A stretch of 64,000 bases of DNA from Benincasa hispida (lineage: Eukaryota > Streptophyta > Magnoliopsida > Cucurbitales > Cucurbitaceae). The translations under genes were made by a program, and so were the position numbers. The DNA is taken from NCBI RefSeq assembly GCF_009727055.1, contig NC_052360.1:63416525-63480524 (forward strand). Reading direction: 5' to 3'. Below, one piece after another: positions 1,070 to 53,966 of the stretch. The notes under the pieces are model-generated. The model was not told the DNA's origin. It ran no database searches and was given only the letters and a program-made list of their open reading frames with translations. The stretch's first letter is position 1. Each line of letters begins with the position of its first letter.

Positions 1070-2943
1070 AAATCAATGTGTCACACAAAGCGGACGTCGT
1101 TGATTTCGAGCTAGTTGTCGTCGTCGACTTTGAACTTGAGGTTACTTTGGTTTCTCTTGATGTTGCTCTGATACCTCTGTAGGCGCTTCATAGTATAAAT
1201 ATTCATTATGATCTCCATGGCTACACCCATGTCCATGCAGGTATGAAGACGATGGACTAGCCTCTAAATCATAATATCATTAACCAAATGCTGACATCGT
1301 CATCATCATTAGACTAACATAACCAGTCTGGCCCTATATCTAAGTCATAGGAGGAAATTTTTCCATATCATGGGCGACCTCATCAAACTCATCTTCTTCT
1401 ACTCGAGCAGGTCCCCTATGTCTAGGAACTGGTGGAGGAGTAATAGGTATATCATATATATAATGTATCTCCTCTATATAGGTCTCGTTGTTACTACATA
1501 TAGCAAGAACTTGGTTTTGATCATTTGCAACATCACTGAGGCTACTGTTGTTCGATCTCTAAGAATTATAAACGATTAGAAAAATTTTAAAATAAAATAA
1601 AATTAGAAATAATTAAATAATATTTATTTATGTACCAGATGACCCACAGCTGCTCCGGATGAGTAACGACCTTGTAATATTATTGTACCAATCGATGTAA
1701 TTTTGAGTATCATCTCTATCAAATTGTCCAAAAGAAACCCCCATTGCAATAAACCTTACACGATAATGCCACCACATTACCAAATGTGCAACTTTTTCAG
1801 ACCAATCTCCAGTTCTTAGGTCGATGTCATGCAGTAGAGGTTCAGTAATACAAGGTGATGGGACATTCTGTTGGAAATCAAATTGTCTTATTACCCTGTT
1901 AGGAAGATGACATTCACCAATGTAAAAACATAAAAGAGGACTTATTGTCCACCATATATTTTGACCGTTTGTACAGAAATTAGGCAAAGTGTCTATGACA
2001 ACTTCATAAGACTCCCAAATAATCTGAAACATAAAATATTATATTAAAAACAAATACGTTAAAAATTTGTATAAAAAGTTCAATTTGGTTCAATATTCAT
2101 GTACATGATCAGGTTGAAGTAGATCAAACATGTATCTGTACTAACAAACTACTTGTGTAGTTGTCCTAGTCACACAAAATTTGTCTCTCCACCTATATTG
2201 TTAAATTAAAATTTTAGATTTTAAATTAACTAGATCAGTCATATAAAATAATTTGTTAAATTAAATTGAATTAAAATAATATACCAAGAACCGTAAGCTC
2301 GTCCAGCTAATTGAGCGTCATTTACATGTTGGAGCAATGAAACCATTGTTGGAAACCGTACCTAAGCCCATAATTGCAAAAATATCAGAGGCCCAACGAT
2401 TTCACGAACTTCAGGTTTTGTTGCTTTGCATAGCTGTCTATACAGCTATGCCAAATATGCTCTACCCCAAGAATACCGTCCCGCATCATAGAGGTTAGCT
2501 AACAATAGCAAGAACATCAAGTGAACGAAATGACTTGATTTGTCAGAAAACAGACTTCCACCCATCATCTGTATTATATATGCTCGCGTATATCTTAGGA
2601 CGGCTTCCTTGTCTACATCATCGACAAGCTCATGAAATTGTGTCCCTAACTATGTCAAACTTCTCGATCATTTAATTTTATCGGTGGGTGGGGTCACACC
2701 GAGTAACAGTTGATAAATATTCAACTAGTCATCATGCATTACTCTGGAAACTGGCTCGCCGTCAACAGGTAATCCGAACAACACTTCTATGTCCTGTAGG
2801 GTGGGGTGGGAAGTGCAATGAACAACTGCCTCTCAAAATTTAGATATCTCGCCAGTGGTATGATCTTCCCATACAATTGATGATCGATGAATCAATTGAT
2901 CATACAGAACATCAGGATCAATCGATTCTAGATTCAAAGTCAT
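1070..2943 (-). pseudogene. Plant mobile domain (MAIN / PP7 long-form-like) pseudogene
   Basis: Read on the minus strand from an ATG at 2943, the translation begins MTLNLESIDPDVLYDQLIHR and continues with the plant mobile domain pattern: a TLQDIEVLFGLPVDGEPV segment, LGVTPPTDKIK, a DKEAVLRYTRAYIIQMMGG segment, and further on the intact stretch 2032-1628 containing WWTISPLLCFYIGE and HDIDLRTGDW. The tail at 1070-1200 reads as the usual basic C-terminus rich in RRR and RRP. The family is known from proteins annotated as MAIN-like or serine/threonine phosphatase 7 long form homologues, many carried by transposons. At least six in-frame stops lie between 2943 and 2280, mostly where the family has tryptophan, so the gene is dead. 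Exon limits in the last 500 bases are uncertain. Confidence 0.75.
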
Positions 2944-3286: not shown

Positions 3287-3703
3287 TGTTAGGGTTGATG
3301 CCCTAAAGTCTCGTTTCCTGTAGTTTGTAAATAGTTTATACGAACGCTTGTGTTTTATAATATATGATATTTACTTCACATCTTGTATTTTGCTCAGTTG
3401 TATGTTTTATTTGCTTTACCACAAACCAATAAACATAAAATCTCTGGTTATCTGTATGTGACTCAAGCATGTATGTGGTGACATACAAGTGGATTATGTC
3501 TTGAGTGATAACCAAAATGGTCTATAGTATATGGATATAGGAGGGAAACCTTATCCTGGTAACGCTATGGACGCGACCCACTTTGTGGAATGGTCACAAG
3601 TGTTGTGACTTGTCACAAATGGTCTGATCCTGATCATTCGTGTTGGGGACATACGAGCGAGGGCGTCCTATATAAAGAGTTTGTATAAGACCTGACCACG
3701 AAG

Positions 3704-3741
3704 CTGTCTCTTATACACATCTAGATGTGTATAAGAGACAG
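3704..3741. other. Back-to-back Tn5 mosaic ends (mate-pair junction adapter)
   Basis: Bases 3704-3722 are the 19-bp Tn5 mosaic end (CTGTCTCTTATACACATCT) and bases 3723-3741 are its exact reverse complement, so the 38 bp form a perfect palindrome of two mosaic ends head to head. This is the structure of the Nextera mate-pair circularisation junction. No IS50 or Tn5 coding sequence lies beside it. The sequence is not plant DNA and marks a join made in library preparation or assembly. Confidence 0.95.
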
Positions 3742-4385
3742 AGCGAAGGTGTCCTATACAAAGATTTTGTATAAGACTTGACCTCGAAGTGTTAACGTCT
3801 CGTTATATAACATCGTTCATGACAGAGACTTCACTTCACTAGGATGACCATAGGTAACATGATCTCAATCCTGAGTGAGTTGGGAACTCCTACCATTGAG
3901 GGTGGTTCTTTGATTTGTATGGGTACGAGTGGCCAGGTCGCCGATTCAAACCTACCATTTTGGGGATTCGTTTGATTTGGGAGCTGGGAACTCAGCTACA
4001 CAAGATGGAATTCACTCCTTCCCCGAGGTAGGGGTAAGTAGATAGATAGCTCCCTTAAGGGCTGATTCTGGGGCTTGAAGGATGTGGCGCCACACACCTT
4101 CTCTTGGCCCAAGAGGTGTTCACACATAGTTGGACTATGTTGTATTGTTCATGAGAGGAATCAGTGGTACTTAAGGAGTGAGATGTAACTACAGCGGCAA
4201 AACAGTAATTTGGCCCAGCTATAGTTACGAGCATCTGTGAAGGGTCATCGTACTCATGATTGGTTATATCCAATGGACACATAAATATATATGTGGTAAG
4301 AAGAGTTCAGCTGTTACTTTATTGGAATGCCTGACAGTTAACGGATGATGGATCTCGTGGCTAAAGAGTTTAGTCAGCTATTCAC

Positions 4386-5129: not shown

Positions 5130-6066
5130 AATGAATTGGAAAGATCTACTTTTGCTCATAGGTACTCTTGAATAAGAGTTCCTTCACACTCCACTAAAGA
5201 TATATTGTGTCCATTTTAACCAATCAACAGTGCGACAACCCTTCACAGATCGCTCGTAAGTACAGCTCAGCCAATAACCGTTATGCCCCTGTAGTTACAT
5301 CTAACTCCTTAAGTACCACTGATCTCTCTAATGAACATAAATTATAGTCTTACTATGACTGAGTCCTCTCTTCCAAAGTGAAGTTGTGGCCACTATGTTC
5401 AAGCCTCGGAATTAGCCCTTAAGAGAACAATTAATCTACTTACCCCTGCTTCAGGGAAGAAGTGAATTCCATCTTGTGTAACTGAGTTCCTAGCTCCCAA
5501 ATAAGACAAGTCCCCAAAAAGGTAGGCAGGTTGAGTTGGCAATCTGGCTACTCTCACCTATACTAATCAAAGAACCGCCCTCAAAGGCAGGAATTCCCAA
5601 AACACTCAGGATTGAGGTCATGTCACCTATGGTCGTTTAGGTGAGATGTAAGTCTCTAGTATCAACTGCGTTATATACAGAGACGAATCATCTCGTGGTC
5701 CGATCTTATACAAACTCTTTGTATAGGACACCCCCGCTCGCATGTCTCCACATGAATGGTAAGGATCTACCATATATAGTAGTTCACAATACTTACAAAC
5801 CTCTACAATGCGGGTCGTATCCGTAGTGTCACCAGGATCAGGTATCCCACCTTAATCCTTATACTACAAACCTATTTAGGTTATCACTTAAGGCATGATC
5901 CACTTGTATATCTCATATACATGCTTAAGTTTACATACAATAACCATGGAGCTTTGTTTATTGGATATGAGTAAATGCCAGAATGAAATAACTCATATTT
6001 ATTCAAAACAATGTGTATATATTAAAAACAACGAGACTCTGGGAGAATTAGGACATCAATCCTAAT
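5130..6066 (-). repeat. LTR fragment, family X, 5' part, minus orientation
   Basis: The reverse complement starts at about 6066 with TTAGGATTGATGTCCTAA and follows the plus copy 3287-4340 block by block: the CCTGATCCTGGTGAC block, a single copy of the GTCCTATACAAAGAGTTTG unit (about 5714-5732), ACTCAGTTACACAAGATGG and TCAGTGGTACTTAAGGAGT. With 3287-4560 it forms a large imperfect inverted repeat around a loop of about 0.6 kb. The single copy of the unit here shows that the two copies around 3704-3741 are not ancestral. Confidence 0.65.
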
Positions 6067-11478: not shown

Positions 11479-12775
11479 TGTTGTGACATAAACTATATAA
11501 TGATGCAAGAAAGGTTCAAGTCCATGTCCCCGTTACCAGTTCCCCGAAAACGGCGCTATAAACTTATAAAAAAAATTTATCTTATGCATCGTAAACTTGT
11601 AATGTAGATTTTATGCGATGATATGTGATACTACTTCTAGATATGTGTTATTAACAAATGTTCTTGTAGTATGTTGTGCATTGTCACAAGTTTCCTTGCG
11701 TTGAAACCAAGTATAATTTTACCACAAGTTTCTTGGTGTGATCCGATGTCAAACACAGGGACTGTTTTAGGTTATTGCATTATGTTTGTGATATATGTGA
11801 CCAAGGGTTTTTCAATTTATAAAAGAATTTGTGTACAAGTAATTAAACATGCGATAAAGTAAAGTAAAGCGGTAAAAATACGATGATAACATAAATTGCA
11901 TTAAAGTAAATTACGATAAAGTAAATCTAAGCTAAGATGATACAAGATACAGGATTCATGATACAAGATACTGAGGTCAAGGCTGGCTGTGAAGATTATG
12001 CAAAGATCGTGTAATGCGGTGACAAGTCTTATGTACGAAGCAGAAACAGAAAAAATAACTAATATAAATAGCACAAGTTCCTTAATTACGTTAAAGATAT
12101 AAGTATCGTTCCGCTTTTCCCTTGGCGTACACCTCTCGGTGATCGGCCATGTTCCCACATCTCTGTGATGAAACAGGGATGAACGTATGAACGCAAGGTT
12201 GCTTCCATCTCTGGAAGTACTACTCACTTTAGTTAACGCATTCTTCTAACTTCGCTCGACAGATCAGAATAACATCTTTCACTTCTACTCTCACAGGTGT
12301 AGATGCCGTCTAGCATGCTTAGCTAATCATTATCTCTTTAGCACAGATTAAGTTATTCGTTTAATCCATATTTAATTACCAAGGTATTAAGAAAACTTCA
12401 TGGAGAAAACGATTAGAATAGGAACGGAAGTAGACAGAAAAAGTGGAAGTGAAGTGATCGAGACATTCAATAAAACTATTTAGCGTCTGATACATGATTT
12501 GTGAATGAAGAGATTTATGAAGATGAAATACACTTTTATAAAATAGAGTTAGAAACAATACAAATAAGCGGCAATGTCTTAGCGCCGATCTGAATAGAGA
12601 TTTGCTTGCCGGCGTGGATGAAGTGAACGGAAGGATGAGCTTCCCTCTCAGGCTTGCTCAACCGGTAGCAGGGATCTAAGCACAGAGCTTCACAACGACG
12701 ATCTGGCAAATTCGCACTAAGACTCACCTCTCGGCCTTCTTTGTTGCCACGCATCTTCTCAGACCTTTTCCCGGT
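11479..12775 (-). repeat. Gypsy 3' LTR
   Basis: On the plus strand it starts TGTTGTGACATAAAC and matches 16250-17550 throughout, including AACAAATGTTCTTGTAGTAT (11654-11673) and GGCGTACACCTCTCGGTGAT (12123-12142). Similarity fades at about 12740-12775, where reverse transcriptase sequence begins. An open frame of 108 codons on the minus strand (12227-11901) has a counterpart in the other LTR but looks like chance. Confidence 0.8.
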
Positions 12776-12795
12776 TAGATAAACAGGAGTCGTAA

Positions 12796-13200
12796 TTATT
12801 GTCGAAGACTGAAAAACATCTCATGGAAAACCTCGACTAACTCCTCCAAGTAATCTGAAATATTGCCATCATGCATTGTTGGAACGTGCCTGGCGCATTG
12901 CAGAGTCCAAATGGCATGCATCGAAATATAAATGTACCAAATGGGCACGTGAATGTTGTTTATCCTGATCTTTTGGCGCAATTGCTATTTAATTGTACCC
13001 TGAATAGCCGTCAAGAAAACAGAAAATTCATTTTCCGCAAGTCTGTCTAACATCTGATCAATGAACGGGAGTGGAAAGTGGTCCTTTTAGTAGCCAAGTT
13101 TAATTATGATAATCCATGCAATTCTCCACCTCGTAGTCGTTCTTATGGGAATTAATTCGTTTTTGTCATTAGTACAACTGTCTCCCCCTTTCTTTGGAAC
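12796..13200 (-). pseudogene. Gypsy reverse transcriptase fragment
   Basis: The minus-strand translation shows DHFPLPFIDQMLDRLAENEF (about 13085-13026) and, in another frame, a stretch corresponding to the FGTF...MPFGLCNAPGTFQ block (about 12945-12880). Frameshifts and stops separate the blocks. The frame ends at the position of the catalytic YxDD-type motif, where the acidic pair is not conserved (FHEMFF is read instead). RNase H and integrase do not follow. Confidence 0.75.
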
Positions 13201-13541
13201 ACTGCATTGGGCTCACCCAGTGCTATCAGATATGGGTAGATGACTCCTGCGTCCAACCACTTTACTATTTCCTTTTTTCAACCTCCCTTATAGCCAGGTT
13301 CAAGTGGCGTTGCCTTTTCTACGTCATGTCTATCCTTTTTCCAAACGAATCTTGTGCATACAATACGAGGGACTGATTCCTCGAATGTTCGCCAAGGTCC
13401 ATCCTAAGCCTTTGCGTTATTTCTAAGGATCGTATGAGCGCTATATTTCTCGTTACTCAGCGATACGAAATGATAACTGGTAATGTGTTGTTACTTCCTA
13501 AGTAAGCATTACTTAAAGTGCACGGGGCAACGGCTTTAACT

Positions 13542-14096
13542 CTAGTACAGGTGGCTCTTCCAAAGATGGCTTAATGCATTGTGAGGTCCATTCAGATAAA
13601 CTTGTCGGTTCAAAATTTGATTCAGTATGAATTTGCGGCGCAGTCCTCCTCCATATTGTGCGATTTCAAGATCTTCCTTCAGCTTCTTTAGGAGTTTCAT
13701 GCCAATGTTCTTCCCGCATTTCCTCAATATATTGGAGTTTTCCATGTCACCTGGGTACTTCAATGCATTGAACACGTTGAATTTTACTTCCTGATCGTCA
13801 CCCTGATGGTCAATTTCCCTTTTTGCACATCAATCAGTGCTCGCCCTGTTGCCGAGAAATGGGTGACCCAAGATGATAGGGACTTCTCTGTCAGTCTCGT
13901 AATCCAATATGACAAAATCTGTCGGAAAGATAAACTTGTCCACTTGCACGAGTACATCCTCTATCTTGCCCTCAGGATGCTTTATTGATCTATCGGCCAA
14001 CTGTAAAGTGATCGTAGTTGGTCTTGCATTGCCGATATCCAGCTTCTTAAAAATCGACAAGGGCATTATATTTATGCTTGCCCCTAAATCGCACAC
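13542..14096 (-). pseudogene. Gypsy retropepsin and linker
   Basis: 14096-13830 encodes a retropepsin core: [20 protein letters not shown] with the active-site Asp in DLGAS, then [18 protein letters not shown], and [11 protein letters not shown] near the C-terminus. This arrangement is typical of the Athila/Tat branch. The linker to reverse transcriptase continues in 13775-13542 (begins MFNALKYPGDMENSN, contains LKKLKEDLE). A stop at 13828-13830 and a frame change separate them. Confidence 0.8.
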
Positions 14097-15925
14097 GCGT
14101 TCCCGACCATCTTCCCTTCTATCGTGCAGGGCAATGTAAAACTTCCAGGGTCCTTCATTTTAGTGGGGATATTGTTTTGAAACAATGCGCTGCATTCATA
14201 TGTTAGCGCAACTGTTTCATTTTCCTCGATCTTTCTTTTATTGGCAAGGATATCCCTGAGAAATTTTATATAACTCGGCATCTGCTCTAGTGCTTCTATT
14301 AAGGGAATGTTAATGTATAACTGTTGGAGAACGTCCAAGAACCTCTGAAATTGCTTACTATCGTCTTTCTTCTTCAACCTGGATGGGAAAGGTGGAGGAT
14401 ACTGCCTTACTTCTTATTGTGTTGACTGTTTGATGAGGTCATATTCTTGTTGTGTTTCATTATCTGGAGGTTGCGTTGATTGAGAATTCAAGCCTTGAGG
14501 AGCTTTATCTTTTGTAGATGAACTTGCTTTTGAACTGGTACTTTTGCCACTATTGGGTGACTAGTCATCTTCAACAGTCAAATCTACTGGTGTTGTTGTC
14601 GCCTCTGATACTGATGGCATAGGGGTTGTTGTTTTGCCACTTCTCAATGTCACTGTGTGACATTGTTCTTTACCTCGCTGCCCTGATGCCCCTGGGTTAC
14701 TGTGCCACGTACCAGACGCTCTCTTCTTTAATTCCCTTGTAAGTTGATCGATCTGCTTTTCTAATTCTTTAAGGGAGTCATCTTGCGATTGTCTCATTGC
14801 CTCGCTCTTTTCAATGTAATGTTTTAACGATGTCTCTAAAGACGAGGTGCTGCAAAAGGTATCATATAAGAATGGTTGGTCACAGGGTGATATACCCTGA
14901 GAATTACCTGGGTTACAGTCCGAAGTAATGAAGACCGGAGGGTTGCCTCTATCCTCTTGATAACTGTTCTGATTGAAACTAAGGCTCCCCTGGTTGTGAT
15001 TCCCGTCCCAACTTGAAGTTGGGTGATCCCATCAACCAGGGTTGTAGATGTTGCCAACCGATTCATCGTAGACAGAATATATGGGTTGTTGATTCCATGG
15101 GGAGACTTCTACTGGATGTCCCTCTCCATATTGGACGCAATTCATTGCGACCATGTGAGTCACTGCATTAACTTGCGCTGATCCTTAAGAGAGAGTTCTC
15201 TGTTGGTTAGCCACCGCTCTGCGAAGTGAGGTCACTGTGGTCATTTGATCGACAATGCGCCATTGTATCAAATTGACACATCGGCACTTTCTACTCTTTC
15301 TTGCTCTAGACCTCTACCTCAAGCCCCGTATCAATCCACTCATCAGAATGCGCGAGATGCGATCCAAAATATTCTTTGCTTCTGTATATGATCTGTTATT
15401 AATCCTCCTTCTGTGGAGGCATCGGCAACTGCTTGCATTGATTAGTCTAAGCCATTATAAAAGGTTTCCATCAGAATACTATCGGGAATCCGAATGCGGA
15501 CAGCTCTTCATTAATTGTCGGAATCGCACCCATGTGATGCTCAATGTTTCATAACCCTTTTGCTCAAAATTCAGACATCCCTCCCGTCTCCTTACATTGA
15601 CGGTTGGAGGAAGATTATTCATGAACCTATCAACCAACTATCTCATGCTTAATCTCATTCGGCTCTAATGACTAAGCCCATCTCTTTGCTTCATCCCGCA
15701 ATGTGTATGGAAAAGAATAAACCTAAGTCTTTCTTGAGTCACATCATGATGGAGAAATGCGCTGCACATGTCTACAAAATTCATCAAATGTGCATGTGGG
15801 TCTTCTCCTTGTATCCTCCAAATTGACCCATATTCTGAATAATCTGCAGCATAATTGGTTTTAATTTCAACGCTTACATTCTCCTTAACCATTTGTCTTG
15901 TGATTCCTGGTGAGAAGTGCCGCAT
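14084..15925 (-). pseudogene. Gypsy gag, broken
   Basis: Order on the minus strand: an N-terminal gag part at 15925-15665 (GEDPHAHLMNFVDMCSAF, the gag signature of this lineage), a degraded middle (15066-14836), LEKQIDQLTRELKKRASGTW and QCHTVTLRSGK at 14797-14561, then a stretch leading to retropepsin at 14377-14084 ([30 protein letters not shown]). Several stops and frame changes break it. Gag would form the particle coat; none of it can now be made whole. Confidence 0.75.
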
Positions 15926-16225
15926 AGTCTCTTATTGGGACATCATGATCAGCAGCAAGAAATATGGAGCCTTGCGCTGGCCATTTTCCCCTTTGATTCC
16001 CTGCGGAAGCCTTGTTAATTATTAGCCATACTTCTCTCACCACTTAATTCGGCCCTGATGAACTCTTGCGCGAATAATACACTTGATCTCTGGGTCCACT
16101 TAGAATTTCTGGATCACTCCAGCACTCCTAAGCCGTTAGACTGCTCTTCGCGTTGAACAGCCAGTACAAAGAGATTTGTCTTGCAAAATACCACAAACAT
16201 GCTCAAACAATAAACCGTTAACTAA
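15926..16225 (-). other. Gypsy 5' leader between PBS and gag
   Basis: Untranslated leader of the truncated element, with short ORF fragments only. Confidence 0.5.
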
Positions 16226-16243
16226 TCTCCGGCAACAGCGCCA
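16226..16243 (-). other. Primer-binding site (tRNA-Asp type)
   Basis: The minus strand reads TGGCGCTGTTGCCGGAGA, six bases downstream of the end of the 5' LTR. This closely resembles TGGCGCCGTTGCCGGGGA, the Athila-type site complementary to the 3' end of tRNA-Asp. Confidence 0.8.
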
Positions 16244-16249
16244 TAAACT

Positions 16250-17550
16250 TGTTGTGACATAAACTCTACAATGATGCAAGCAAGGTTCAAGTCCATGTCC
16301 CCATTACCAGTTCTCGGCAACGATGCCATAAACTTGTAAACGCAAAATTTATCTTATGCGTCGTAAAATTGTAATGCAGATTTTATGTGATGATATGTGA
16401 TACTACTTCTAGATATGCATTATTAACAAATGTTCTTGTAGTATGTTGTGCGTTGTCACAAGTTTCCTTGCGTTGAAACCAAGTATAATTTCATCGCAAG
16501 TTTCTCGGTGTGATCCGAGGTCGAACACAGGGACTGTTTTAGGTTATTGCATTATGTTTGTGATGTATGCGACAAGGGGTTTTTCAATTTATAAAAGAAT
16601 TTGTGTATAAGTAATTAAACATGCGATAAAGTAAAGTAAAGTGGTAAAAATGCGATGATAACATAAATTGCGTTAAAGTAAATTGTGATAAAGTAAATCT
16701 AAGCTAAGATGATACAAGATACAGGATTCATGATACAAGATACTGAGGTCAAGGCTAATTGTGAAGATTATGCGAAGATCGTGTAATGCGGTGACAAGTC
16801 TTATGTACGAAGTAGAAACAGAAAAGATAACTAATATAAACAGCGCAAGTTCCTTAATTGCGTTAAAGATATAAGTACCGTTCCACTTTTCCCTTGGCGT
16901 ACACCTCTCGGTGATCGGCCATGTTCCCACATCTCTGTGGTGAAACAGGAATGAACGTAATGAACGCAAGGTTGCTTCCATCGCTGGAAGTACTACTCGC
17001 TTTAGTTAACGCATTCTTCTAATCTTATCTCGACAGATCAGAATGACATCTTCACTTTTGCTCTCACAATTGAAGATGTCATCTAGCATGCCTTAGCTAA
17101 ATGCATTTATCTCTTTAGCACAGATTAAGTTATTCGTTTAATCCATATTAATTACCAAGGTATTAAGAAAACTTCATGGAGAAAACGATTAATGGAGGAG
17201 CGGAAGTAGACAGAAAAATGGTAATGAAAGTGATCGAGACATTCAATAAAACTATTTAGCGTTTGATACATGATTTGTGAATGAAGAGATTAAAAAGATG
17301 AAATACACTTGATGAAATAAAGTTAGAAACAAATACAAATAAGTGCCAACGTCTTAGCGCTGATCTGGATTGAGATTTGCTTGCCGGCGTAGATGAAGTG
17401 AACGGATGGATGAGTTTCCCTCTCAGGCTTACTCAATTGGTAACAGTGATCTAAGCACAGAGCTTCACGACGGGGATCTGGCAGATTTGCACTGAGACTC
17501 ACCTCTCAGCCTTGTTATGCAATCAGACCGTCAAATCTGCACAACGGTTA
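16250..17550 (-). repeat. Gypsy 5' LTR
   Basis: Direct repeat of 11479-12775. It begins TGTTGTGACATAAAC on the plus strand directly beside the primer-binding site. The upstream border is unclear: similarity to the other LTR fades between 17512 and 17550, but the true LTR may run further toward 17700 if the other copy is truncated. A degenerate second primer-binding-like sequence lies inside at about 16314-16331. Confidence 0.75.
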
Positions 17551-40100: not shown

Positions 40101-43100
40101 ATTATAGCTCTAACCGATGCTGCACCACTGTCATCCAGACCCCCCTGTCAAACCGTAGATCAGAATGGAGAAAGATCAATATATATACACTCAAATAATA
40201 AACCAGCAAAGAAAAAGAGTGAAAAAATTCCAAGAACTAGAACCTGAAATCCAGGTAAGAGTGGTATGACAATAATGACCCTAAAAATCTTCTTTTCACG
40301 GTAGGCTCTCATTATGCGGCGGTATAATGCTTCTAACACACGGTTCCGTATTGAATCATCTCCCGCGAGGCCTGATATAAAAAATTGATTCTGGAAAAAG
40401 AAAATCAAGTTTCAATATCAACATGTTCAGTTAAAAAATGAAGGTGATAGAAAAAGAAAGGAAAAAGAACCAAAAACAAAAAGAACAAAAACAAAAGTAT
40501 CAATGCAATAACACAAGTAAAAAAACATATACCTCGATGTAGATAAAATGTTCTGCTTTCTCAATAAGAGAGCAATATGCAATGTGAATACTTTCTTCAG
40601 TTTGGCTTGTCCCAGCAGACCACTGACTGACGCTTCTGATGACCTGAAAGGAGCAAGAATTAGCAACAGAACAATCTAATACCATAAAAACTGACAAATC
40701 ACTGACCACCAATTAGCTTCTAGATATGGCAAATATGACTTTAAAGAGCCAGTCCTCCTACTCTACATCCATGTAGTTCAACAATTTGTTGGTTCAGCAA
40801 ATTAACAATTAAGGATGCTTCTCTTATGAGTTTTGATATTCACACAGGTAAGTTGAAATTTTTAAATATAAATAATATCTATACAAACAAAACGGGAGTT
40901 CAGATAACCCCAATTGCAATATGAGCTTAGCTACTGTTATAAATATCAGAAAAGCAAAAGAAAGTAAAGTACTAAAGTGCATTTGAAACTGCAAAAAAAC
41001 CAGCGCCAAAGAAAGCCAAAACCCAAAGCGATCATGCAACTTTTTTATCCACAGGTATAAAACTTCCAATATCTTCTTCATGCAACTCACCTGGCAGCGA
41101 CATGAAGCACATGGACCAACTTGTCCAGATTCATCTGTGAAGCCACCATGATGCCCCCTGTCTTGTATTTCCCACCACTCAAAATCTGAACTTTTGACAC
41201 GATGTGTTTTCCCATCTCCAGAGAACTTTCCATGGGAATCCAAATGGTCAAGATCATCAACAAAGCCTTTCATAGGCATATCGGATCCTATGGGTTCAAC
41301 TTTGATCTTCCTGAGAGAAAAAGGGAGACCGCTGCTGACCTTACTTGGCTGATCAAAGGGATTAACAATGGGCTCCAGACCATTCAATTTTAGACCTTCA
41401 TTGTCGGCATCCTGTCCATCAGCCTCTTGAGGCAAAAGCAATGGAATATCGTGGAAAGAAGATCCTCGAGAAAATGAATCCTGCACTGTTGTTCCTCTTG
41501 AATTCTCAAAACTCTTCTTTTCAACCTCCAACTCTCGGCTATTCCACAAATAATGAGGAATGACCATATGATGCTGAGGCATAAGTAATGGAATTGCCTG
41601 CTCATTTGGGGCTTTATTTCTCTGCAGGAAAATATATATTTTTGTTAGTAAAATGTTAAAACTTTCAAAACTATTGTTGTATGTTCTACGAATGCTTCAT
41701 GATTCAACAATATTTGGACAGAGTACCAACGAGCACTGACCTTAGCATAATTCCAGCGTTGGACAAAATGCCTGGCTATGTCTCGACAAGGTGGTCCCCA
41801 AAGTGCACAGTGGACATCATGCCAAGGCATGCGAGGATATTTTTTGCGATCCAACTCATCTCTCATGGTATCTTCCCATGAATTTGGCTCAGATTCCCTG
41901 AGTCAATCAAACGTAAAATGAGCACAATTACACATAAAATCATCACGTGGAATCAAAACAGAATTCTAATAGAATAGCATGAAAGTTCTTAAATAATCAT
42001 CACTATCTAGTGGTGTACTAGGTGACCCTCTAAAATTTTTACCGACTCACAATTAATTTAGATAAAAAAAAGAGATCATAATGAGGAATCATCCAAATAA
42101 CAATGACCCAAAAAAACTTCAGGGAAAATGTTCAGCAGTAGAGAACAGTAGAACATACCTTGGATTATAGTAGTCCTTCCCAGGCCATACTGAAGGAGGG
42201 CAATCACCAACTTTATGTTGGGGTGTATCATAACGACCAAAGCATAAATCCAGTCCTCCGATAAAGCAAATATGATAATCAACAATGACAAGTTTCTCAT
42301 GATGGGACCTATATTAACCACTCACTAGTATTAGATGCTGAAAAATCTAGACCGATTTGACACTAAAACGTATAGACTATGTCCTCAAAAAAAAGACACT
42401 GAACACATACCATAAGTACACGCCACTGGAGAAGTGGTCTGGGTAACGCAATACTCTTACATTCTCATGGATGCCAAGAAGTTTTCTCTTGCTATAAACA
42501 CTGTTAATCTTTAAAGCAAGGGCAACCTCTTTGTAGAGAAGAATGTAGATCTGTATACAAATTACAAAAATTCCTGTCGTCAGAGATCAGATCAATACTG
42601 TGGAATTAGAAAAAGAGTGCAATACATTCATAATGCATAAGGTACGCAAGTTTTGTAACATTTGGAGAGAGAATAGAAAAGTTAATTCAAAATTTTATCT
42701 ATTCCATGTCTGGTACTGTCTAGATCAATGGATTGCTATTCTATTAGAATATATTAGGTAACTTTTTGATGCCTCATAATACTAATGCTGGAGGCATAGA
42801 ATTATTATAACAAAAATTTCTCTCCATCTCTGCAGTAAACAATCGAGTCTTTTTCTGAAAAAAAAAAAAACTTGAGGGGTAGATATTCTTTTGAGAACAA
42901 TACTACAATTTAATACTATAAACCCATTTATGAAACAATTAATGCATAATGATAACCAAAACATTTTAGAAAAACAATAGTTTTTTCATTATCTAACTAT
43001 ACGCTACTACAGATAAATATAATTAATTTAACATTTAACAAGTATAAGAAAAACATATTATTTTTAATCGTTTACATTGCAAAGTAATTGATATATAAAA

Positions 43101-46100: not shown

Positions 46101-48077
46101 TTAAGTATATAGTTGTAGTCTTAAGTATATAGTCACCATTTTTAAACTCGAGAAACAATTTGTTCCACAAAAACCCAAGCTTTCATTGAGAAAATACAAG
46201 AAAATAGATGGGCTTTAAAAACAATATCAAAGTCCTATACAAAAGGATCCAATACAGTGGTTTCAGAACAATAATAAGATATGCATCATATGTCTTCAAA
46301 ATAATGTATCACCACTTATACCTCTCGTGAGTTGACAATATCCATGTTACTCAAAAAGTGATTCAGATACCCTTGCATTGCATTTTTAGCTCTATCAGAC
46401 ATAGAGTGCTGCCTTCCTAAAGCAGGCCGAATAATTGGCAGGGCTGCACTGGATGGAACATCCCTGAAATGAAGTACCACAACCATATGAATAATAGCAT
46501 TTACACATATTGAACAGGCTACATAAACAAATTCTTCTAATGCTGCTTTGAGCATAGCTGAAAAATACCGATTTTTAGAACTTTCATCATGATGCAGAGG
46601 ATCGGCCTCATCATCTGGTCCATCCTCATCTTGGGGCACCGCGGTTTGGTCTCCTATTCCTAGATTTTGAAGCCATTCTTTAACCTTTAATATAATGTTC
46701 CAATGAAGACTACATCAAAACCCCAAACGTTTATATTAACAATAACTGATCTAAGATTTCAAAAGCATAAGAGCATTAAACACCAAATAATTCATACGAT
46801 CAGACCAAGAACAAAAACGTATAATGATAACAACCGTACTAATGATAACAACCATACTATAAAGTTTTTAGAGGGGTTGAGACACAATAGAGTTTATGTA
46901 GGGGTTGAGAGATCCAAAGAGCTGATTTGATCGCTTGTTTGATTCTCTGTCTTCTTTTGAGCCTTGGTGTGTAAGGATTTTGTAATTACCCTTTAGATCT
47001 TATTACGCTGATTGGAGCCCTTTGCTGTTTTCATTTGGCACTTTTTTTTTTTAATGGAAACAACAATTTTCATTTGGCTCCTTTTTGTGTGCCACAATTT
47101 TTCTTAATGAAGGTATGGGAAATCGTGAGCAAGATAAAAAGCAACCATACTACTATATAGACCATCTTACCCACATACCTGTTCTTGCTTCTCGTGAATT
47201 TCCTCAATGAATGCCCGTTTTTTTAATGCTAAATGCAGATAAATTACATGGGAAGCTTTCTTCAACATGCGCCATTTAAACTATTACAGGAAAACAAAAT
47301 AGAGTTAACCCAGGAAATGCTCAAAGCTGCAAAGATGAAAAATCTCAAAAGAAAGAGAGAAAAAATCACTAGACTAAAAAGAAGGAATATTGGCGAGAAA
47401 AGTATTTTATAACGTCATAGAGAGTACAAACAACTAAATTACTCGTACTTCTGCTGGAGTGTATTGGTAGAATTGGGAAGTGTAATCATCAAATTCTAGA
47501 ATTAGCAACAGGACATCGAAATAAAGCTCTAAATCCAATAGAATACGCATCTTCAATCCCACCACTACACTATATGATAAACTTGAGGTAACTCATCGAT
47601 AATATTACACGTAATTCTACAATCGTCTTATTCGATTCCCTCAATGTTCTTCGCGAGCAAACAAACGCAATTGCACAAATCTAATATTACAATCCTAGAC
47701 CAAATTGAAATTATAGAACACCTGAAGCGTGGAGTAATTAAGCTGCAGAAACGAAATCTCCAGAGGAAGATAAATTTAGAAACAACAAAAATTCAAAAAG
47801 AAACTCAAACCTGCTTGTACTGGCACTCAATTGTGTAAGAAAGAAGCATGGGACTGATATCGCCGGCATCGGGGCGAGAGACGGAAATAATCGTAGCCTT
47901 CGGCAACTCATCGAAAATCCTTGTCGGCTCAGGAGCATCCTGATGGAATGAAAAAAACGACGACATCGAAGCCGTAGGCGGCGAGGCCGTAGGCGGTTCC
48001 GATTGCATTTGAACGTATCGAGGCCCACCTCCGGCCATCAACTGCTCCGATCCCATTCCTAATCTGCCCAACGCCAC
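37189..48077 (-). CDS. PLDZETA1: Phospholipase D zeta (PX-PH type)
   Basis: Hydrolyses phosphatidylcholine to phosphatidic acid; plant PX-PH PLDs are calcium-independent, act on vacuolar and endosomal membranes, and function in root growth and phosphate starvation. Twenty exons: 48077-47811, 47280-47179, 46684-46569, 46463-46322, 45563-45393, 44342-44169, 43946-43704, 43584-43468, 42550-42411, 42308-42159, 41897-41741, 41621-41091, 40643-40533, 40390-40244, 40144-39947, 39498-39397, 39095-38964, 38786-38721, 37583-37522, 37435-37189 (3375 bp, 1124 aa; all GT-AG, phases consistent). PX region about residues 45-200, PH about 215-345. Catalytic HKD motifs: HHEKLVIVD (H494, K496, D501) and HSKIMIIDD (H926, K928, D933). 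C-terminus [13 protein letters not shown] is the conserved zeta ending. The N-terminus SEQLM...YVQMQ resembles the zeta1 rather than zeta2 paralogue; that choice is from memory. A second in-frame ATG at 48056 is equally plausible as start. Confidence 0.95.
37739..37792. repeat. 25-bp tandem duplication in PLD intron
   Basis: AGTGCTATCATTCCTAAGAG is present twice back to back in the intron between exons 18 and 19. Confidence 0.85.
37823..37990. repeat. MITE-like half copy in PLD intron
   Basis: Contains CGTTTGACAACCATTTGGTT followed by TTTTGAAAATTAAGTC, matching the left half of the foldback at 38160-38462. Confidence 0.5.
38160..38462. repeat. Foldback MITE in PLD intron
   Basis: Left end GGTCCCGTTTGGCAAACATT; the right end contains AAACCAAAAGCCGAAAATTAA and AATGGTTACAAAATTGAGAC, an imperfect inverted partner of the left end. 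Size about 300 bp, in the intron between exons 18 and 19. Non-autonomous DNA-element class inferred from structure only. Confidence 0.6.
39706..39911. repeat. Foldback element with GATAGA core in PLD intron 15
   Basis: CAAACTATTTACAAAAATAG (39732-39751) is inverted as TATTTTATGTAAATAGTTT (39861-39880), enclosing GATAGACTTCTATCAGCC-type sequence. It lies just downstream, in transcript terms, of the exon 15 donor and is followed by an AT microsatellite. Confidence 0.6.
39915..39946. repeat. AT microsatellite at splice donor of PLD exon 15
   Basis: TA dinucleotide run beginning at the very donor (GTATATATGTATATAT on the minus strand). Confidence 0.8.
46091..46132. repeat. 21-bp tandem duplication in PLD intron 4
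   Basis: TTGTAGTCTTAAGTATATAG occurs twice in tandem. Confidence 0.9.
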
Positions 48078-50829: not shown

Positions 50830-51453
50830 AAATATCCTGAAAATTTTTGGCGAACTTCCAGACTTCTTCATGTATGCATTGGGCTTCATTGAGGTAAGCT
50901 AATTTCCTGTTTAAGATGTTTATTGCTGTTGAGTAGTCCAATTCAATCTCTTTTTGCTAAATCCTAACTTGATGGATAGTTTAATTCCTTCTAATATAGC
51001 TTTCAATTTAGTTGAAAGAGGTTCATAGACGAAGTTCAAGCAATCTTGGCATATTGCTTTGAGATTTCCAGTGAAGTCATAGCAAACTATTTTGATTCTC
51101 GTAATCGAAGGATTTTTCTTCCATGCAGCATCAACATTCACTTTAATTGTACTTTCTTTTGGTTTGATCCATTTCATGTTAGAGAGAGAAATTATAGTCT
51201 TCAGAATTTCTGAATTTGATCTGTATGAATTGTTTCTTTTTATAGTTTCAGTTAAATAATTTTGGATATATTGAATTCTGATTCTAGTGTTTGTGATGGG
51301 CTTATCATGGGTGACGTTGCTTCTATTAGACCATATTGCCCAGCATGCTGAAGAAACTCTAAAACTAAAGAACCAGTGAGTGGAAGCGGATCGTTCCAAA
51401 CTCCATTGAGAAAGAACACATACATTTACAGTCATACAGAAACAGTTATGCAT
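50830..51453 (-). pseudogene. LINE-type RNase H domain remnant
   Basis: The 177-codon minus frame contains CWAIWSNRSNVTHDKP, then MKWIKPKESTIKVNVDAAWK and SITRIKIVCYDFTGNLKAIC, the start of the RNase H-like (RVT_3) domain found at the C-terminus of plant non-LTR retrotransposon proteins (VNVDAA holds the first catalytic Asp). Sequence after the frame ends at 50920 continues in another frame with DYSTAINILN to a stop near 50830, so there is one frameshift. Reverse transcriptase is not present in the window, in keeping with 5' truncation. Confidence 0.7.
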
Positions 51454-51479
51454 AAAGAATAAATTACATCATGCTTCTT

Positions 51480-52022: not shown

Positions 52023-53966
52023 TGCTGGATTTTATGTCCTAAAACTAGCAATTTGTAAAATGATAAACATTTTCTATAATCAATAAACTTATTATTGATT
52101 TTATAAATTGTATAAAAGTCTAAATCCAATAAACTAAAACTCATGACTATTGCATGAGTACTTGAACATTATGTGGAGACATAAGAGTGGATCAAGTTCG
52201 AGTAAATAGTCAAAATGATCTATAGTACATGAATAAGGTTGGGTACCTTATTCTGGTAACACTATTGGATACGACCTACTCTGTAGTTGTTAAAAAGAGT
52301 TGTAAAGTGCTAATACGATGTGATCCTAATTCGTACATGTTATGACATGAGGACTAGGGACGTTCTATGCAATGAGTTTGCATAAGATCGGACCAAGAAA
52401 TAAGTCACTCTTACTTTATAATGTTGTTTACTGTATAAGACTGACTATTTCACCTAAATGACCTAGGTAACTCAATCTTAATCCTGAGCTAACTATGAAC
52501 TGATCGGATCAAGAAATAAGTCACTCTTACTTTATAACATTGTTTATTTTATAAGACTGGCTATTTCACCTAGATGACCTAGGTAACTCGATCTTAATCT
52601 TGAGCTAACTATGAACTCCTATTTATTCAGGATTATCCTTAGATTTGCATAGGTGAGAGTTGGCTCAACAGCGCCGTCTCAATAAGCCTCCCATTTCAGG
52701 GGTAAGACCTAATAGATAGCTGGGGACATAGGGTATAAAACGAAGTTCATGCCTACCCGATTTAGGGATAGGAGAAAGGTTGTTCTCTCAAGTACTGAAT
52801 CCAGGTTTTGAACAAAGGGCCCCACTCTCTCACTGGGCTAAGAGAGTTTGGTTTAGTAATTGGATCACAAACCAGTTGTTCATTAGAGGATTAGGAACTT
52901 GAGGAATAAGACGTAATCTCGGGAGTAAAATAAGTATTTGACCTAGCCGTTATTATGAACGACTTGTGAAGGATCGACTTGCTGATTATGGTTAAATCAT
53001 GTGGACATAATATATCTACAATGAAGGGAGTGCAACTATGAGCTTTAGTGGAGTGACCCATTAGTTAACGAATGAAGATTAATCTAGTCTAATAAGTTTA
53101 GCCAATTAATCTCGGATCATTGGAGCCCATGACCTGTTGGTCCGCGAGGCCCCCCTACTAGCTCGTAATGGACTAGCTCTAGAATAGCGTGATAAGTTAA
53201 TTTGAAACGTTTAAATTAGAATTAAGGAAATTAGTAATTATATGAGATATAATTACATGTTTAATTTGAGAATTAAACGGAATAGGAGAATTTATATTTA
53301 AATATATAAAGATTGATGTGTGTAAAAATTAATATAATATTTGATATTAAATTAATTAAGTTTTATTTAAAAATTAATTTATGAAATTAAATTTTCAGTT
53401 TTAAAATCAAAATGGTTTTTTAAAAAATCAAGTTTTGATTTTGAGATAAAATTGAAAAATTGGAAAAAACAATACCCAAATGGAAAAACATTATCCATCT
53501 TCTACTTGCTCACACAAAAGCCATCACCATTGCCGTGTTACTCCAAGCATGAGCTACAACTCATGCAACTCTCTTCATTGCATGATGGTCTACAATATAT
53601 TGAAGACTTTGGAGTGAATTTCGGGCATGCAATCAAGAGAGAATTTTAGAGAAAATTCGTGCTGAAGAAAGTGTTCTTCAACAAAATTGCTGTTGTGAGC
53701 AGTTCTCTATAATCCCTTGATTTAAGCTTGTTTTGAGTCTCACAACTCAATCTAGAGCATCAAGAGAATAGTGGAGAAGATCTTGAGGTGATCTGCAATA
53801 AGATTCAGAGAAGATTGTAGCTAGAGATCGTGCTTTGAAAAGGTTCTACAAAGGTATGTCATGAAACTCACTTGTTTTCTACAAGAGCATGCTTTATATT
53901 TTGTCAAAATTAATGAATTAGAGTGCTTAAATGATCCTTGTTGCTTCTGTTGTTAATGATACAATC
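52023..53966 (+). repeat. LTR, family X, near full length (about 1.94 kb)
   Basis: Begins TGCTGGATTTTATGTCCTAA and ends near TTGTTAATGATACA. It carries both the 5' blocks shared with 3287-4340 (CCTTATTCTGGTAACACTAT at 52248-52267, and the ACCTAGGTAACTC block) and the 3' blocks shared with 1-1040 and 18011-18750 (GATATTAAATTAATTAAG, CTACAAAGGTATGTC at 53848-53862). It thus links the separate fragments into one family. No internal coding region follows, so it looks like a solo LTR. Confidence 0.65.
52391..52618. repeat. About 116-bp tandem duplication inside LTR
   Basis: AAGAAATAAGTCACTCTTAC starts two successive copies (about 52395 and 52511), each running to CTAACTATGAACT with about ten differences. 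Confidence 0.85.

Follow-up and report, generated by a model that had tools for sequence, protein, structure and literature searches.

We consider it nearly certain (probability about 0.97) that the 38 bases at 3704-3741 of the window, by which we mean the whole stretch of 64,000 bases analyzed here, are the junction adapter of a mate-pair circularisation, which was left untrimmed in a read and built into the contig. The evidence comes from the letters themselves, from their match to a printed laboratory reagent, from their recurrence in other assemblies, and from the sequence on either side of them.

Identity of the 38 bases

The 19-base mosaic end CTGTCTCTTATACACATCT was detected with 0 mismatches at 3704-3722 on the forward strand and at 3723-3741 on the reverse strand, so that the two copies lie head to head. 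When up to 3 mismatches were allowed, no further match appeared in the 64000 bases, so that the count stayed at 2, both within 3704-3741; 100 shuffles of the window gave a mean of 0.04 matches, and none of the 100 contained 2. No perfect palindrome in the window is longer than the one that the two ends make together; those next in length (26, 22, and 20 bases) are all purely A/T. By hand arithmetic from the composition of the window, a perfect palindrome of 38 bases is expected on the order of 1e-6 times per 64 kb, a value computed without also demanding a match to a known reagent. Accordingly, the original prediction, which described two perfect 19-bp Tn5 mosaic ends making up a 38-bp palindrome, was confirmed by both exact matches and by the rank of the palindrome. 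The window contains a single copy of the adapter, and its N count is 0. Exact searches of the window for the TruSeq 13-mer, the Nextera read 1 and read 2 tails, P5, P7, and a loxP piece gave no match, which speaks against ordinary library-end read-through.

Table 1. Positions of the adapter halves, the flanking units, and the repeat copies in the window.
Feature	Position	Strand	Basis or remark
Tn5 mosaic end, 19 bp, first half of junction adapter	3704..3722	+	Exact match; letters printed in PMC3046479
Tn5 mosaic end, 19 bp, second half of junction adapter	3723..3741	-	Exact match on the - strand
Left 48-bp unit of plant repeat	3656..3703	+	Last base adjoins the adapter; 42/48 identical to 3742-3789
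Right 48-bp unit	3742..3789	+	First base adjoins the adapter; possibly an assembly duplication; copy B has the unit once
Diverged plant repeat copy A, holds the junction	3426..4290	+	Similar to copies B and C elsewhere in the window
Repeat copy B, inverted, one 48-bp unit	5200..5964	-	Alignment to A
Copy C of the repeat, with more divergence, a single recognisable unit, and its own tandem duplication	about 52123..52660	+	Match to A

PMC7357533 prints the identical letters, in the same head-to-head layout, as a biotin-labelled ring adapter for circularising fragments of ~4 kb. The agreement with the window is 38 of 38 bases, with no difference found, and this was the sole match to the full string in the literature searched. 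In the protocol described there, DNA is fragmented with ultrasound and a ligase attaches the adapter, unlike in Nextera tagmentation; the identity reported here is to that print, and the letters by themselves would fit either source, a Nextera tagmentation kit or a ligated ring adapter. Two further papers deal with the mosaic end: PMC6201506 calls it an engineered mosaic of the Tn5 outside and inside ends, and PMC3046479 prints the 19 bases, derived by engineering from the natural Tn5 ends, and states that 'Nextera' uses a hyperactive Tn5 transposase to integrate synthetic oligonucleotides. The steps of Nextera mate-pair preparation with a biotinylated junction adapter are given in PMC6298255, where the trimming classes include reads that carry the adapter in the middle.

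Recurrence of the adapter in other assemblies

The exact 38-mer was found in at least 120 stretches of the collection genome_contigs, which are not independent, since they come from 19 prokaryotic genomes of various bacteria (judged by title and counted by eye) and many of them from two Enterococcus assemblies. A further 7 stretches, on 6 contigs of viral_contigs, and 5 of 72,556 plasmid records carry it too, which places the window beside known adapter carry-over in public assemblies. In 4 of the 7 viral stretches, all sharing one sample number, the 38-mer lies no more than 10 bases from the contig end, and in one of the plasmid records the match reaches the last base. In a Cronobacter plasmid record, the match that we inspected lies under no gene listed in the collection's gene table, which is incomplete. 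Complete E. coli genomes, a set that covers one species and is no test of plants, contained the 38-mer in 0 of 20,395 records. Four loci in three records titled as chromosomes (L032; L108; L122 and L127) carry it, and together with the plasmid records they indicate that finished-looking records are not free of adapter. One of the 5 plasmid records, NZ_KY978628.1, is described as a complete sequence.

Among 155 adapter sites, the window counted, 53 have N within 300 bases, as expected from gap filling, and the window itself has none. Four adapter copies were seen inside 510 bases of one bacterial locus (L048, 2821-3330) and four more in another (L082, 5372-7042); parts of these two assemblies may have been built from untrimmed reads. 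The distribution of the 38-mer, which recurs in unrelated assemblies independently of the organism as a junction adapter should, is the pattern of a reagent and unlike that of an inherited element. The proposal that the palindrome is a mate-pair circularisation junction is thus supported by the match to the adapter in PMC7357533, by the engineered nature of the mosaic end, and by recurrence across unrelated assemblies.

The flanking duplication and alternative explanations

The adapter lies between two direct units of 48 bp, which align without gaps, are identical at 42 of 48 positions (88%), and abut it on both sides. This diverged direct repeat is an addition to the earlier reading, which had considered the 38 bases only. 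Both units belong to a diverged plant repeat, and the copy that holds them (A) is presumably LTR-like. After removal of the adapter and the right unit, copy A and copy B form one collinear alignment, with 623 of 750 aligned bases identical. Scored against B, A reached 531 in its assembled form, 598 once the adapter was taken out, 684 with the right unit removed as well, and 674 with the left unit removed instead; against C, the corresponding scores were 155, 149, 167, and 147. Dropping the adapter and one unit clearly improves the fit to B; the fit to C improves hardly or not at all, so copy C says little in this comparison. Copy C itself contains an adapter-free tandem duplication, with members of 116 bp at 52386-52501 and 52502-52617 (+) that are 92% identical, and it starts in the tail of the 48-bp unit, the same part of the repeat in which the adapter lies in A. 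A search of viral_contigs with the 48-bp unit, uninformative for a plant repeat, returned 0 matches.

Could the 38 bases have arrived in the plant genome by other means? It is very improbable that an engineered Tn5 truly inserted here, or that the bases are left over from a native Tn5/IS50. Insertion of Tn5 in vivo leaves a 9-bp target duplication, and there is none here, because 3695-3703 and 3742-3750 differ. Although a mosaic end is a functional transposase site according to PMC6201506 and PMC3046479, 0 bases separate the two ends, the transposon body is absent, and PMC3046479 states that two ends can meet only if enough DNA separates them. A Pfam scan (E 0.001) of all 8 stop-to-stop ORFs of at least 130 aa that do not run off the window found no transposase family, and its two matches were to a plant mobile domain and to RVT_3; the statement that no transposon genes lie beside the ends therefore holds in the sense intended. 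With nothing between the ends, no transposase in the 8 ORFs, and no target duplication, we rejected an in vivo Tn5-type insertion. Unlike the outside and inside ends of Tn5/IS50, from which the mosaic end was derived (PMC6201506), the sequence in the window is the engineered hybrid.

We assign even less probability, close to nil, to a palindrome native to the plant, derived in evolution from the inverted element (TATACAAA and TTTGTATA) that the repeat has within its unit. The mosaic end does have the 9-mer TGTATAAGA in common with both flanking units, but this is within the chance range and we treat it as coincidence; 1.1% of 2552 49-mers from the window score as high. Against a native origin stand the exact identity to a reagent over 38 bases and the result that copies B and C contain no mosaic end at up to 3 mismatches, and on these grounds it was rejected.

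The flanks of the other adapter sites were examined for direct duplications with one copy on each side, neither more than 2 bases away from the adapter, with a score of at least 30 (and also of at least 60), after N and neighbouring adapter copies had been cut out. Of the 155 sites, with the window counted, 41 were excluded because one of their sides retained less than 60 clean bases; the same shortage, or an adapter nearby, led us to skip 181 control draws. At a score of at least 30, duplications were present at 21 of 114 tested sites including the window, that is, at 20 of the 113 others, compared with a single case among 1059 positions drawn at random from those loci. At a score of 60, the numbers were 15 of 114 (14 of 113 with the window left out) and 0 of 1059. 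The 20 duplicated sites are spread over 9 of the 19 listed genomes. Because of the excess at adapter sites over random positions, the join around the adapter is probably false as well, beyond the 38 bases themselves. The duplications at these 20 sites are 95-100% identical, in contrast to 88% in the window, where they lie inside a repeat; this difference would fit a joining of two diverged repeat copies here and an overlap of the same sequence elsewhere.

A different view of the flanks is that the adapter is an artefact but the 48-bp tandem duplication is native, the adapter having fallen between two real units. A native duplication is possible, because copy C carries a 116-bp tandem duplication that begins in this unit and lacks an adapter, and here lies the chief argument for not regarding the 48-bp duplication as false. 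Moreover, 6 of the 48 positions differ between the units of copy A, a divergence that fits old tandem copies of native origin. On the other side, copy B has the unit once, abutting duplications were found again at other adapter sites, and the unit boundaries coincide exactly with the two ends of the adapter, an arrangement that is automatic for a chimeric overlap and has a chance of about 1 in 48 for a native tandem (hand arithmetic). Taking both sides together, we regard a native duplication as a serious but somewhat improbable alternative.

If the 38 bases are a circularisation junction, as we favor, the library and the assembly step that we infer would have acted as follows. The adapter would have been added to fragments of several kb either in Tn5 tagmentation (Nextera kit) or with a ligase, as described in PMC7357533. 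Each fragment would then have been closed into a circle through the adapter, the circle sheared, and a junction-spanning piece sequenced, and a read that escaped trimming would have entered the assembly or the gap filling. Because both flanks fall in the plant repeat, this read probably linked two copies that had diverged from each other, and such bridging would have doubled the 48-bp unit (42/48) around the adapter. More generally, we lean toward the view that where a junction adapter has become fixed in a public assembly, its flanks are often falsely duplicated as a direct repeat, which makes the adapter a marker of local misjoins.

Host sequence and consequences for the locus

A fragment of a plant mobile domain (PF10536, E 4.8e-16) was identified at 1628-2038 (-). 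An ORF of 290 aa at 40824-41696 (-) has 105 relatives, most of them unnamed; where an organism is given for the relatives shown, it is a plant, and several of these are called phospholipase D or phospholipase D zeta. Both features support a flowering plant as the host, in agreement with the claim that synthetic sequence lies inside a plant contig. The frame at 46316-46714 (-) may be another exon of the gene at 40824-41696. A weak match to RVT_3 (E 2.1e-4) was seen at 50920-51468 (-), close to repeat copy C. Elsewhere in the window, two direct repeats of ~1.27 kb (11479-12741 and 16250-17516, +) are 91% identical and lie 3.5 kb apart. The frame between them, at 14561-15031, had no Pfam match (E 0.001) and is, we assume, gag-like; the repeat pair and this frame (11479-17516) are probably an LTR retrotransposon.

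Folding of 3640-3805, calculated with RNA parameters and for sequences of unmatched length, gave -64.4 kcal/mol as assembled and -16.8 kcal/mol without the adapter and right unit, and the 38 bases by themselves fold at -24.3 kcal/mol. Screens for hairpins and small RNAs would therefore pick the site up. Repeat dating and tandem-repeat calls at this locus would also be distorted. The bases at 3704-3741 are an assembly artefact, which has no biological meaning but is misleading, and the safer mask extends from about 3656 to 3789 rather than over the 38 bases only. If false duplications of the flanks are indeed common at such junctions, removing just the 38 bases would leave invented tandem repeats behind.
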